DNA from: an uncultured bacterium | GTDB taxonomy: Bacteria; Armatimonadota; UBA5829 | NCBI GenBank assembly: GCA_938074205.1 | Contig: CALJES010000002.1 | Location: forward strand, 310,001 to 374,000 | Length of the DNA stretch: 64,000 nt | Direction of reading: 5' to 3' | Part shown: piece after piece, positions 3,354 through 8,674 of the stretch | How positions within the stretch are numbered: position 1 is the stretch's first letter | How the letters are laid out: every line of letters starts with the position of its first letter | Notes under the pieces: model-generated | What the model was told of the DNA's origin: nothing | Databases searched by the model: none | Seen by the model: only the letters and a program-made list of their open reading frames with translations | Program-made: the position numbers and the translations under genes

Positions 3354-3986
3354 GTGGCGGATCTACAGGCATTGGCCCAGGCCATAATCAACGGCAAGGC
3401 GCCGGAAGCGAAAGCTTTGACCGAAAGTGCGCTCGCAGAAGGAGTCAGCCCTGCGGACATTCTCAATCAAGGCTTAATTGCCGGAATGAACGTAGTCGGC
3501 GAGAAGTTCAAGAACAACGAATTTTATGTACCGGAAGTCTTGATAGCAGCTCGTGCTATGAAGACTGCCATGGAAGTATTGAGGCCGCAGCTTGCCAGCA
3601 GCGGTGTGCAACCTGTGGGCAAGGTCGCAATCGGCACCGTTCGCGGAGACCTGCACGACATTGGTAAGAACCTGGTTGCTATGATGCTCGAGGGTGCCGG
3701 CTTTGAAATAAATGACCTGGGAGTTGATGTAAAGCCTGAGCGGTTTGTGGAGGTGGCCAAAGAAGGGGCGGACATTGTGGCTATGTCCGCGCTTTTAACC
3801 ACCACAATGCCTGCAATGAAGGATACCATCGATGCGTTGACCGCAGAGGGTGTGCGAGACAGAGTGAAGGTCATGATCGGCGGAGCACCGGTCACGCAGA
3901 ACTACTGTGATGAGATAGGAGCCGACGGATACGCGCCTGACGCTGCCAGCGCTGTTGACAAAGCAAAGGAATTGCTGAACGTGTAG
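3354..3986 (+). CDS. Corrinoid (B12-binding) protein, MtbC/MtaC-like
   Basis: This is a methyl-carrier corrinoid protein of the methyltransferase family that shuttles methyl groups via cobalamin. The helical cap domain spans residues 1-85 and the Rossmann B12-binding domain about 88-210. The cobalt-ligand motif D-x-H-x-x-G is present as Asp99-Leu-His101-Asp-Ile-Gly104. The length of 210 residues is normal. It starts with GTG at 3354 after a strong AAGGAGG site. No substrate-specific methyltransferase or MtbA/MtaA-type partner lies beside it, so the methyl donor cannot be told from context. It could serve O-demethylation, methylamine or methanol metabolism, or a sensory B12 role. A terminator follows, so it is probably monocistronic. 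Confidence 0.9.
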   Translation: MADLQALAQAIINGKAPEAKALTESALAEGVSPADILNQGLIAGMNVVGEKFKNNEFYVPEVLIAARAMKTAMEVLRPQLASSGVQPVGKVAIGTVRGDLHDIGKNLVAMMLEGAGFEINDLGVDVKPERFVEVAKEGADIVAMSALLTTTMPAMKDTIDALTAEGVRDRVKVMIGGAPVTQNYCDEIGADGYAPDAASAVDKAKELLNV

Positions 3987-4097: not shown

Positions 4098-4553
4098 TTG
4101 GCTGATCGATACAATGCGGCGACTGGAAATCTGACGTTACGTACTTTTGCTGTACTTTGTGTTGCCATTACCCTCGGCGCATTCGGGCAACTCTTCCTAA
4201 AGATGGGGCTCGGGGCGCAGGGCATACCGGCTGGCCACGGTCTTTTCGAAACCGTCGCCAACATAGCCTTGGCGATGTTGAGACCCAAAGTTATGTTGGG
4301 ACTTGCCTTATACGTCACTAGCACTTTTTTCTGGCTGACCGCTGTAAGTCGGGTGAGGCTCAGTGTCGCATATCCAATGATAAGCCTGAGCTATCCGCTG
4401 GTGGTAGTTCTGTCAGCAATGGTCCTTCGTGAGCAAGTCAGATGGGGTTATGCACTAGCTGGGTTGGTATTCATCTGTGCAGGCGTCTCATTCATCGGTT
4501 TGGGTTTGGGTCGGATGGCAGACGACGTTGGGAAGGAGTACACCCGCAATTGA
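4098..4553 (+). CDS. EamA/SMR-type small membrane transporter, ArnE/F-like (first of pair)
   Basis: A 151-residue integral membrane protein with four predicted membrane segments. It belongs to the EamA/small multidrug resistance superfamily and resembles the ArnE/ArnF half-flippases that move undecaprenyl-linked sugars. Conserved features shared with its neighbour are the segment-1 motif FGQ-x-x-x-KMG and S-R-V-x-L-S-V-A-x-P-M before segment 3. It starts with TTG at 4098 behind a G-rich GGGGCGG. Its stop overlaps the next gene's start (TTGA). The tandem partner has exactly the same length, so a heterodimer is likely. Substrate is not shown by the sequence; a lipid-linked sugar is inferred from the two downstream genes. 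Confidence 0.75.
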   Translation: MADRYNAATGNLTLRTFAVLCVAITLGAFGQLFLKMGLGAQGIPAGHGLFETVANIALAMLRPKVMLGLALYVTSTFFWLTAVSRVRLSVAYPMISLSYPLVVVLSAMVLREQVRWGYALAGLVFICAGVSFIGLGLGRMADDVGKEYTRN

Positions 4554-5005
4554 CGCTGCAAGTTTTCGGGCTCATATGGTTGACGCTGATAGTTCTGAGC
4601 TTCGGTCAGATACTCATAAAAATGGGTATTGGGAAACAAAAAATTCCCGTGAGTGCAAATCCTTTTCGCACAGTTTGGAACATCATTAAAGTAATGCTCA
4701 GACCTAAAACGGCTGCCGGCTTGGGTATGTACGTGGCCGGTACTTTCATTTGGCTGTCAGTCCTCAGCCGAGTTAACCTCTCTGTGGCGTTTCCTATGTT
4801 TAGTATGGGTTATTTTCTAGTGGTGCTACTATCGGCCACGATTTTGCACGAGCGTGTTGACTGGCGTTTCGCGGTGATCGGTTTGATACTGATCTCGATT
4901 GGGGTTACCTTCATTGGACAGAGCAGCCCCAAGAATAGCCGAGCATACCGTATTCCGGCCGGCGCCGCAGCAGCATATAATGTGGAACCTGCGGGAGCAA
5001 AATAA
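4550..5005 (+). CDS. EamA/SMR-type small membrane transporter, ArnE/F-like (second of pair)
   Basis: A 151-residue, four-helix membrane protein paralogous to the preceding gene: FGQILIKMG, then SRVNLSVAFPM. I chose the TTG at 4550 because it overlaps the previous TGA and sits 11 nt after a strong GGAAGGAG. An upstream in-frame extension would be hydrophilic and off-family. The tail after the last helix (about residues 127-151) is soluble and Ala-rich. It overlaps the following YfhO-family gene by 26 nt, so all four genes are translationally coupled. With its twin it probably forms a two-subunit flippase, by analogy with ArnE/ArnF. Confidence 0.75.
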   Translation: MTLQVFGLIWLTLIVLSFGQILIKMGIGKQKIPVSANPFRTVWNIIKVMLRPKTAAGLGMYVAGTFIWLSVLSRVNLSVAFPMFSMGYFLVVLLSATILHERVDWRFAVIGLILISIGVTFIGQSSPKNSRAYRIPAGAAAAYNVEPAGAK

Positions 5006-7094
5006 GAACCTTATTGCCTGTGCTATCCTCACTGCACTGGTGTGCGTGTTCCTGTGGCGGCCGATTTTCAACCGCGAGGCACTACTCCCTGGCGAATATC
5101 TTAGCCAGATGTTTCCCTGGAAAGCTGCTGTAAAGGGTCAACGGCAGATTCTTCAATGGAACCCCTTACAGTGGGATGCCGTTGCCCAGTTTTACCCCTG
5201 GAGGGTATTCTACGCGCGGTCTATACGCGAGGGCAGAATACCTCTATGGAACCCTCATCAATTCTGCGGAACGCCATTTCTTGCCAATGCGCAGTCGGCC
5301 GTGCTGTATCCGCCGAATCTACTGTTTGCGGTGCTTAACCCGATTACTGCGTGGACCGTCTACGCCGCGCTTCACCTTTTTCTTGCAGGACTCTTTACAT
5401 ACTTGCTGCTTCGAGAGCTAGGATGCAGTGTGGGTGCAGGATTAGTAGGGGGTATCTGCTATTCGTTTTGCTCTTTTAATGTTCGATGGTTGGAACTACC
5501 TACTTTTGTAGGAGCGGCTGTTTGGCTACCGTTGATTACACTATTGGTTAATCGAGCGGTAGAGCGGAGATCCGTGTCAAGCGCTGTGCTCGCCGGCTTG
5601 GCGCAGGCAATGGCTTTTCTTGCTGGGCACTTTCAGATAGCCTTCTATGTACTATTCGCCGGCGTTCTGTGGTGGCTGTGGAAGTTGGGCACTGCGTGCA
5701 GATCGGGCGGATTTAAACGAGCAGGGAGATACTCTTTGACTGGGTTCATCGTTTTCGTGCTTGTCACGGTGCTCGTGATGTCGCCACAGGCTCTACCGAC
5801 AGTAGAGCTAGCTCAGAGCTCGCACCGGGTGCGCGATGTTTCTCCTGAAGGATACGCGCGGTTTATTGCAAATGCAGTCGCGCCATTCCGACTGATAACC
5901 GCCTTTGCGCCGGATTTTTACGGCAACCCATCACGCGGAGACTATTTCCTCGGCAGTGCGGCTGACTTTATGGAGTATGGCCTATATGCCGGCATAATAC
6001 CGCTTTTCCTCGCAGTTGCCGGAGTGTTCTACATAGGATTGAGGCAAGATGTGCTTTTCTTTGCGCTGATTGGAATCATTGCAATGTTGTGCGCAACTGG
6101 TACTGTAATCAATTATCCATTCTATTATTCGATACCAGGTTTTAGCGCGCTCGGCGGACCCAATAGGATCTTGCTTTTATATTTCTTTGCTGTTGCAGTA
6201 TTGGCTGGCTTCGGTACTGATTGGCTATCCGCGCGAGCATCTCATCTAAGCAGTTGGCGGCGAGCAAAATGTCGGTTGGGACTTATTGCCATCTTGGTGT
6301 CGATTCTGCTGATAAGTGCTGCGTTTGCAGGAGGTTATTCCTATGCTCAGGAGTTTCTTAAGCGCGTCGGGTTCAACGCATCACCGGATCTGAGCAAGTG
6401 GTATTTGCCATTACTTGCGCTGACCGTCGCTTCGATTGGAATCATTCTCGCAAGAACCTTTGACATCGTAGGAAGCAAGCTCTTTCGGGTCGTGGCGGTA
6501 TTGATCGTGACGGCGGATCTGTTTGCGTTTGGAATCAACTATAACCCAACTAGCGAGCGTATTAAAGTATATCCTGAAACCCGCCTAATTCGCGAACTCA
6601 AGCGGCTTACCGCAGACGGCTCACGAATCGCGCCTATTAATCCTTACTGGAATCTGTATCACACGCCTGCCTGCGTCTTGCCGCCGAATGCTGCGATGGT
6701 TTACGGCATCAACGACGTTCAGGGCTACGACTCACTCTACACGCGCGTATACAAAGACCTATCATCTGCGGTTCAAGGCACAGATTCCAGTCCCATCGAA
6801 AACGGCAACATGGTTTTAATTAAGCGTGTGACAAGAAGACTGCCGCAACTTGCTGACTATGTGTTGACGACCGAAAAGCTTCACAGGCAGCCGCTGCAGG
6901 TAGAACTTGTTGGTCGATGGGACAGCGTATACGTTTACAGGATAAAAGGTGATTGGTGCGATGTGTCGAGGTACCAACCGGTAGTTTCATTCTTTTCATT
7001 TCGGCTAGGATTGTTTTTAGGATGCTTAGGCGTGGCGTTTGCCTTGGGGACTGTTTCGTGTCACTGGAGGTTGGTGCGCTGGAGAGCAACGTGA
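4980..7094 (+). CDS. YfhO-family polytopic membrane protein (GT-C-like)
   Basis: A 704-residue protein with many hydrophobic segments and a periplasmic C-terminal part, matching the YfhO family. Typical elements are the N-terminal loop with GEYLSQMFPWK (where GT-C enzymes carry acidic residues), the DFYGNP and GLYAGIIPLFL region, and GGPNRILLLYFF. In Bacillus, YfhO is the GT-C-type enzyme that transfers a sugar from an undecaprenyl carrier to lipoteichoic acid, working with a flippase and a carrier-charging glycosyltransferase. The ATG at 4980 was chosen because it precedes the first hydrophobic helix by about 12 residues. It overlaps the upstream gene by 26 nt and the downstream one by 4. 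Acceptor is unknown. Confidence 0.8.
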   Translation: MWNLREQNKNLIACAILTALVCVFLWRPIFNREALLPGEYLSQMFPWKAAVKGQRQILQWNPLQWDAVAQFYPWRVFYARSIREGRIPLWNPHQFCGTPFLANAQSAVLYPPNLLFAVLNPITAWTVYAALHLFLAGLFTYLLLRELGCSVGAGLVGGICYSFCSFNVRWLELPTFVGAAVWLPLITLLVNRAVERRSVSSAVLAGLAQAMAFLAGHFQIAFYVLFAGVLWWLWKLGTACRSGGFKRAGRYSLTGFIVFVLVTVLVMSPQALPTVELAQSSHRVRDVSPEGYARFIANAVAPFRLITAFAPDFYGNPSRGDYFLGSAADFMEYGLYAGIIPLFLAVAGVFYIGLRQDVLFFALIGIIAMLCATGTVINYPFYYSIPGFSALGGPNRILLLYFFAVAVLAGFGTDWLSARASHLSSWRRAKCRLGLIAILVSILLISAAFAGGYSYAQEFLKRVGFNASPDLSKWYLPLLALTVASIGIILARTFDIVGSKLFRVVAVLIVTADLFAFGINYNPTSERIKVYPETRLIRELKRLTADGSRIAPINPYWNLYHTPACVLPPNAAMVYGINDVQGYDSLYTRVYKDLSSAVQGTDSSPIENGNMVLIKRVTRRLPQLADYVLTTEKLHRQPLQVELVGRWDSVYVYRIKGDWCDVSRYQPVVSFFSFRLGLFLGCLGVAFALGTVSCHWRLVRWRAT

Positions 7095-8674
7095 ACGCGA
7101 ATAACGATTCTGGTGAACAGCGCTGGGTATTCGGTTGGGCGCTTGCAGCTGTATTCCTTGCATCACTGCCGTACTTGTGGGGATGGTATATCACGCCGCC
7201 GGGATACGTTTTTCTGGGCCTTACGCACAACATCGACGACGGAGCGGTCTACCTGTCTTGGATCCGCCAGATAGCCGACGGAAGGCTTACCTATATCAAT
7301 CTGTTCACCGCTGAGCACGTCCAGGCACATCAGTTCAATGTTCTGTTTCTGGCAATGGGGCTGGTTGCTCGGCTGACGCACATTTCGGTAATCTGGGTGT
7401 ATCATCTGTTTAGAGCCTTGCTGGGCTTCTTCTTCGTTTTAGTCGCTTGGTTGTTTTCAAAACAGTTTTTCGAGTCGAACCGGGACCGAAAACTCTTCGT
7501 CCCACTTCTATGTTTCTCGTCCGGGATCGGATGGCTTTTTCTGGATTACGCCGCGCCCACGGGTCCAGTGGACAACTGGCAGCCCGAAGCGATTACATTT
7601 CTAAGTATGTATTTGAACCCATTGTTTCTTTGTAGCCTTATTCTGATGGTACTTGTGTTCCATTTCCTCAATCAAGGTCGGCGCGCAGGCCGTTCGCGAC
7701 ATTATGTATGCGCAGGTTTGTTTTTGCTTTTGCTCGGCAACATACACACATACGATGTTGTTACCGTTGCAGCAGTCTGGATAGTCTACTTGCTTTGTGC
7801 AATCGTTATCGACCGCAGAGTTCCAAAGCGCGACATTCTCCTCAGTCTTCTCGCCGGGTTAGTTGCTCTGCCTTCCATTGGGTATCAGTTATACCTGTAT
7901 AAAATCGACGAGGTTTTCCGTGCGAGGGCAAACTCGCCCGCTCCATCACCTCAAGTTTGTGCATATTTCGCGGGCTACGGACTGGTGTTTGCTTTTGCGT
8001 TGTTAGGAGGGTGGGCGCTGATTCGGCGGGCAGACCGGCGAATGATGTTGCCTTTGGTTTGGTCGACGGTGGGCTTCGCTCTGCCGTATTTGCCCATAGC
8101 TCAGCAGAGGAAGCTTGTTATGGGATTGCATATCCCACTTTGCATTCTGTGCGTCTACGGGTTAACGCGAGGGCTGGAACGAGTGCCTGAGATAGTGCGC
8201 TGGGCAATCGCGTGTACTGTTATCCTTTTTTCGCTAAACAGCAATTTCGCTTTTCTCGCGCGAGATATCGGCCTTCTGAACCAAGGCCGGACAGTCACAC
8301 ATTACTTGCCGTATGCAACGAGAGATGAGATGGCAGCGATGCAGTGGCTGAAACACCACGGTTCGCAGGGCCATATCGTATTTGCGTCGCCGACTTTCTC
8401 CCTGTTTACACCAGCTCTTGCGGGCCTAAAAGTCTATTATGGACACTGGAGTGAGACGCCGAATTACGCTTCAAAGCTGCGGGAGTGGATGGCGTTTATA
8501 GACGAGTCGACGGATGTCAGAATTCGTTTGAATATACTCAGACGCACAAAGGCTCGCTTCTACGTTTCGGGGCCGCCTGCGGAAGTCAAACCCCAAGAAC
8601 AACTAGCAGAAACAATGCACCCAGTCTGCAGGTATGGAGATGTCACCATCTACGAACTGTGCTTCGCCAAATAG
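7091..8674 (+). CDS. Polytopic membrane protein, probable GT-C glycosyltransferase
   Basis: A 527-residue membrane protein of about ten hydrophobic segments. The first periplasmic loop contains LTHNIDDGAVYLSWIRQIADG, an acidic (DD) loop of the kind GT-C enzymes use for catalysis. The C-terminal soluble part has the AAMQWLKHHG...FASPTFSLFTPALAG...YYGHWSETP pattern seen in uncharacterised mannosyl/arabinosyltransferase-like proteins. The GTG at 7091 overlaps the previous TGA (GTGA) with GGAG just upstream. It is the last gene of the four-gene membrane operon, ending 52 nt before the convergent folE. Transferase activity is inferred; donor and acceptor are unknown. Confidence 0.65.
   Translation: MNANNDSGEQRWVFGWALAAVFLASLPYLWGWYITPPGYVFLGLTHNIDDGAVYLSWIRQIADGRLTYINLFTAEHVQAHQFNVLFLAMGLVARLTHISVIWVYHLFRALLGFFFVLVAWLFSKQFFESNRDRKLFVPLLCFSSGIGWLFLDYAAPTGPVDNWQPEAITFLSMYLNPLFLCSLILMVLVFHFLNQGRRAGRSRHYVCAGLFLLLLGNIHTYDVVTVAAVWIVYLLCAIVIDRRVPKRDILLSLLAGLVALPSIGYQLYLYKIDEVFRARANSPAPSPQVCAYFAGYGLVFAFALLGGWALIRRADRRMMLPLVWSTVGFALPYLPIAQQRKLVMGLHIPLCILCVYGLTRGLERVPEIVRWAIACTVILFSLNSNFAFLARDIGLLNQGRTVTHYLPYATRDEMAAMQWLKHHGSQGHIVFASPTFSLFTPALAGLKVYYGHWSETPNYASKLREWMAFIDESTDVRIRLNILRRTKARFYVSGPPAEVKPQEQLAETMHPVCRYGDVTIYELCFAK

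Follow-up and report, generated by a model that had tools for sequence, protein, structure and literature searches.

GtrA proteins are the usual flippases of YfhO-type glycosylation systems, and the flippases of multi-component transmembrane glycosylation in Gram-positive bacteria have so far been of the GtrA or Wzx type. In Bacillus subtilis, glycosylation of lipoteichoic acid combines the GT-A polyprenyl-phosphate sugar synthase CsbB, the small flippase GtcA (YngA) with four transmembrane (TM) helices and the GT-C protein YfhO (PMC7389260, PMC8035078). Equally, the ArnC/ArnE-ArnF/ArnT system that adds aminoarabinose to lipid A joins a paired SMR-type flippase to a GT-C enzyme using an undecaprenyl-phosphate-linked sugar, while the three-component pentofuranose system ORF15/ORF14/ORF12 of Citrobacter youngae possesses an EmrE/ArnE-like 4-TM protein as the proposed flippase, a PRPP-dependent phosphoribose synthase as charging enzyme and a GT-C enzyme that founds family GT136 (PMC11127046). 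In mycobacteria, one small flippase, Rv3789, has been proposed to feed several GT-C enzymes, the Emb and Aft arabinosyltransferases, with decaprenyl-phosphate-arabinose. The principle of an SMR-type flippase working with GT-C enzymes is not new, as it is already known from ArnE/F, Rv3789 and C. youngae ORF14 (PMC11127046). Direct evidence for small flippases moving polyprenyl-phosphate-sugars is, however, scarce (PMC11127046, PMC9574504), and a literature search retrieved neither a report of an SMR-type flippase together with YfhO nor one of any YfhO or GT-C system in Armatimonadota.

Here, four membrane protein genes, P1 to P4 (Table 1), are described in a window of 64 kb (the whole stretch of DNA analysed) from a genome of 3.0 Mb with relatives in the little-studied phylum Armatimonadota. 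The four genes are very probably part of a machine that moves lipid-borne sugars through the inner membrane and links them to an acceptor outside. With the B. subtilis system the putative machine would share a GT-A polyprenyl-phosphate sugar synthase, a small 4-TM flippase and a YfhO-type GT-C protein, but the proposed flippase is ArnE/F-like and not a GtrA protein, YfhO is overlapped by a further GT-C gene that is unclassified, and the candidate GT2 synthase gene is unlinked. The genome encodes LpxC, which makes a diderm envelope likely and a teichoic acid acceptor unlikely; our guess would rather be lipopolysaccharide, a surface polysaccharide or protein. With the Arn system the locus would have in common the paired SMR-type flippase and GT-C proteins, the models of which both match the structure of ArnT; however, P1 and P2 score well below the ArnE/F cut-offs, the GT-C genes belong to YfhO and to a family outside Pfam, and no ArnT family model is matched by any of the four genes. 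The systems of C. youngae and mycobacteria are both without YfhO, the latter with different genes, although mycobacterial AftA is the best structural match of P4.

Table 1. Location of the operon genes, the preceding gene and the candidate charging enzyme
Feature	Position	Strand	Start and length	Assignment
Corrinoid protein gene	3354-3986			B12-binding corrinoid protein
P1	4098-4553	+	TTG, 151 aa	ArnE/F-like 4-TM SMR/DMT protein, first copy of tandem pair
P2	4550-5005	+	TTG, 151 aa	Second copy of tandem pair
P3	4980-7094	+	ATG, 704 aa	YfhO-family GT-C membrane protein
P4	7091-8674	+	GTG, 527 aa	Second GT-C protein, without Pfam/NCBIfam family
GT2 ortholog	G000:C3:281101-281841 (= L201:9101-9841); profile match 281116-281838			Candidate charging enzyme, same genome, outside the window

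Gene organization and conservation

The genes P1 to P4 are codirectional with overlaps of 4 nt (P1/P2), 26 nt (P2/P3) and 4 nt (P3/P4), in agreement with the initial annotation, which had described a four-gene membrane operon with overlapping ends from the sequence alone. The same annotation had pointed to the identical length of the two ArnE/F-like proteins; while their ArnE/F-like character holds, the equal length is correct but uninformative, because both start at TTG and relatives differ in length. The P2 reading frame is open from position 4442. A scan for promoters and terminators delivered sites no more numerous than in shuffled sequences. P4 is followed on the opposite strand by a convergent gene which we take, by its sequence, to be folE. 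Upstream, the gene for a B12-binding corrinoid protein precedes P1; a corrinoid protein is found directly upstream of the operon class-wide, adjoined in relatives by a RACo-type reductive activator (L061, L063, L066, L074).

Relatives of P1 and P4 occur in 37 and 55, respectively, of the 61 genomes searched. An SMR gene is followed by YfhO in 47 locus records and YfhO by P4 in 42, which correspond to approximately 39 and 32 contigs after removal of duplicates by hand, some genomes having been fetched twice. This conserved order, which the initial annotation had named as a point to be checked, and the wide occurrence of P1 and P4 relatives mean that the locus is not a chance arrangement.

Two predicted GT-C proteins

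Assigned to the YfhO family already in the initial annotation, P3 matches PF09586 with 36.2 bits, above the Pfam gathering threshold of 28.5, and 34 of 38 P3-type sequences match the model at E ≤ 0.001. An AlphaFold model built from the alignment of these 38 sequences (pLDDT 92) gave 14 Foldseek matches in the PDB at E ≤ 0.001, all of them GT-C entries or complexes that contain a GT-C protein, namely OST/STT3, PglB, AftA and ArnT, with TM-scores of 0.33-0.46, lower than those of P4. GT-C enzymes carry their catalytic acid in the region of the first outer loop. In P3, D66 in this loop, directly after TM1, is invariant (38/38).

For P4, which had been noticed as a second GT-C-like protein, comparison with Pfam, NCBIfam and PDB sequences yielded nothing useful, and no consistent Pfam match emerged across 52 P4-type sequences, so that its identity came from the fold alone. 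The AlphaFold model (pLDDT 95, alignment of 52 sequences) has 27 Foldseek matches in the PDB at E ≤ 0.001, again exclusively GT-C entries or complexes holding one, with AftA as the best match besides OST/STT3, PglB, AglB, DPY19, ArnT and ALG9. Directly after TM1, the first outer loop carries D49 in 49 of the 52 sequences and an aspartate or glutamate at position 50 in all of them. Both large proteins thus combine a predicted GT-C fold with conserved acids in loop 1, the architecture on which the initial reading depended, and both are proposed to be extracytoplasmic glycosyltransferases. A profile-profile comparison of P4 with P3 gave a probability of 2%, with which sequence homology between the two is not established.

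The P4 family, GT-C without a Pfam entry, is nearly confined to Armatimonadota. A relative outside the phylum is encoded near GT2 genes in Geomonas azotofigens (L123), possibly a result of horizontal transfer. In two genomes of one genus (G013, G014; L045, L046, L111), two open reading frames, meeting near residue 320, take the place of a single P4 gene, which might reflect a gene split, a frameshift or an assembly error.

The ArnE/F-like pair

The best NCBIfam match of P1 is ArnF (NF002816; 1.9e-11, 44.5 bits, below the cut-off of 99) and that of P2 is ArnE (NF011625; 5.9e-9, 36.1 bits, below the cut-off of 92), and all 23 aligned P1/P2-type sequences match both models. The two 4-TM proteins are 44% identical, and a profile of their relatives matches EmrE in the PDB at 1.1e-5; the SMR model PF00893 is matched by neither P1 nor P2, and weakly by 5 of the 23 sequences. 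An arn operon context was not found for P1 and P2, the neighbours being YfhO and P4. Proton-coupled SMR transporters need a central glutamate, and TM1 is devoid of aspartate and glutamate in 23 of 23 SMR sequences, P1 included. Lipid-type SMR proteins often replace this glutamate, which has been read as a sign of possibly absent proton coupling, and a TM1 without an acid fits the glycolipid subtype (PMC9574504).

Beside YfhO, most genera of the window's family have a tandem pair of SMR genes; outside this family there is one copy. When 33 SMR proteins were placed in a tree, the copies from the window's family all fell into one clade (98/96), and P2 grouped with the second copies of another genus (95/90). 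As the second copies of two genera group together, the pair arose by duplication inside the window's family; it is a local duplication of a usually single gene.

The copies have diverged in charge, with a Lys/Arg bias of +1 in P1 and -5 in P2. Second copies range from -5 to -6, first copies from +1 to +2 in four of five pairs with -2 in the fifth, and single SMR genes mostly from -2 to +1, with two at -3 and -4. Since paired SMR proteins nearly always show opposite charge biases (PMC9574504), P1 and P2 likely constitute an antiparallel heterodimer with fixed opposite topologies, an assignment made uncertain by the near-neutral bias of the first copies, negative in one of them. Further, more distant tandem ArnE/F-like pairs are present elsewhere in the genomes of relatives (G003:C98, G004:C14, G008:C19, G013:C18, G014:C67).

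Exchange of the proposed flippase

The genome of the window is without a match to GtrA (PF04138). Among the 61 Armatimonadota genomes, GtrA is present in 23 of the 24 that lack the SMR protein versus 7 of the 37 that bear it (scored as present at E ≤ 2e-20), seven genomes holding both. The Fisher p values for this exclusion, 1.1e-9 by genome and 6.0e-6 by family, overstate the evidence because the genomes are related. On a UvrA tree, built without four genomes that may carry UvrA paralogues, five changes of the SMR gene suffice, and the three to five independent SMR/GtrA pairs, none of them contrary, are too few for significance. The strongest support for both families filling one role comes from position, as the slot immediately before YfhO holds a codirectional GtrA gene in seven genomes (G028, G032, G042, G045, G046, G055, G059); in G031, GtrA is next to YfhO but divergent. 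In G032, G046 and G059 the gene upstream is, judged by its first residues, presumably fmt, as at the SMR-type loci of the class. The absence of GtrA from the genome and the exchange in one slot support the earlier suggestion that an ArnE/F-like pair replaces GtcA: SMR-type proteins would serve as flippase before YfhO in the lineage of the window and GtrA in others.

The candidate charging enzyme

As the initial annotation had stated for the carrier-charging glycosyltransferase, no GT2 gene was found in the 64-kb window; its expectation of a GT2 neighbour in related genomes is borne out by five distant relatives (L079, L134, L154, L161, L165), in which a second YfhO gene and a GT2 gene overlap; in four of them the GT2 gene comes directly after P4, within 60 bp. 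The L165 sequence is divergent, without some of the usual GT2 motifs. A profile of the operon GT2 and its orthologs identifies an unlinked ortholog in the genome of the window with 398.8 bits, compared to 112.1 bits for the next best match. At ~245 aa, the protein is too short to include a membrane domain at its C-terminus. It matches Pfam GT2 as well as polyprenyl/dolichyl-phosphate hexose transferase profiles, the latter below their equivalog cut-offs; as the best profiles, which include dolichyl-phosphate hexose transferase, ArnC and polyprenyl-phospho-GalNAc synthase, are all matched below cut-off, the sugar cannot be called.

With a threshold of at least 281 bits, the GT2 ortholog is present in 48 of 61 genomes and missing from six of seven P4-less versus 7 of 54 P4-bearing genomes (Fisher p=1.9e-4), whereby a weak P4 match in G056 was scored as absent. 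P3 and P4 are present without a GT2 ortholog in G028, G042, G055 and G058. From the distant operons and this co-occurrence we infer that the unlinked GT2 is the partner of the operon in the genome of the window. In the window's family, the gene upstream of the GT2 ortholog is, by its sequence, presumably ftsY, while in other families (L209, L210, L212) the ortholog adjoins a metallophosphoesterase-like gene.

Proposed mechanism and alternatives

Integrating these observations, the cytoplasmic GT2 enzyme would charge polyprenyl phosphate with one sugar, the SMR pair P1 and P2, probably as an antiparallel heterodimer, would carry the polyprenyl-phosphate-sugar across the cytoplasmic membrane to its outer face, and from this donor the two GT-C enzymes P3 and P4 would glycosylate an acceptor outside the cytoplasm. 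We regard this sequence of charging, flipping and transfer, with a flippase slot open to SMR or GtrA proteins, as probable. A more far-reaching reading is put forward tentatively, as it might equally fail: that the flippase of YfhO machines is modular, with SMR and GtrA proteins swapped several times within one phylum, that P4 founds a GT-C family and that the pair represents a step towards an obligate heterodimer. The natural exchange of two flippase families before the same GT-C enzyme offers a clean swap test of function, and the duplication of P1/P2 a case for studying the transition from a single-gene flippase to a heterodimer. Furthermore, P4 supplies a GT-C family that is missing from Pfam, and the module suggests that Armatimonadota have a conserved surface glycan still to be characterised.

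Opposite-bias SMR pairs are also typical of exporters (PMC9574504), and P1 and P2 could accordingly be an ordinary drug, guanidinium or polyamine exporter, the flippase for the GT-C enzymes being encoded elsewhere, for example by one of the two Polysacc_synt (Wzx-type) proteins that score above the cut-off in the genome. Such a function is nevertheless very unlikely considering that ArnE and ArnF are the best NCBIfam models of the pair and match all its aligned relatives, that TM1 throughout lacks the acid required for proton coupling, that adjacency to YfhO is kept phylum-wide and that other genomes have GtrA in this position. Somewhat less improbable, though still unlikely, is flipping by a homodimer of the near-neutral P1, as in the single-gene relatives, with P2 as a diverging or regulatory paralogue. 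Single copies outside the window's family and first-copy biases near zero would agree with a homodimer, as would the finding that lipid SMR proteins in the GEBA genome set are all single genes (PMC9574504); however, second copies have been retained in several genera, two of which share a supported second-copy clade, P2 keeps most conserved residues of the SMR family, and the consistently negative bias of second copies is the pattern of fixed-topology partners, which keeps the heterodimer the favoured arrangement.

A sharing of one donor by P3 and P4 is plausible. The competing view, that one of them uses the sugar charged by GT2 while the other depends on another lipid-linked donor or acts as a non-catalytic acceptor guide, seems the less probable of the two but has to be taken seriously. 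In G040 and G053, one locus has SMR plus YfhO and another has P4 plus YfhO, GtrA plus YfhO is found without an adjoining P4, and several genomes have two or three GT-C-like genes around P4, all of which would be compatible with separate donors. On the other hand, P3 is absent from all seven P4-less genomes (p=8.3e-8, 61 genomes), suggesting that the two are lost together, the loop-1 acids are conserved in both proteins and the median overlap is 4 nt where P4 follows YfhO.

At several loci (L134, L135, L146, L147, L153, L164, L165), an extra gene of approximately 450-580 aa is located between YfhO and P4. It possibly encodes a third GT-C enzyme, as in L077 the product of a neighbouring gene, 551 aa long, matches PMT.
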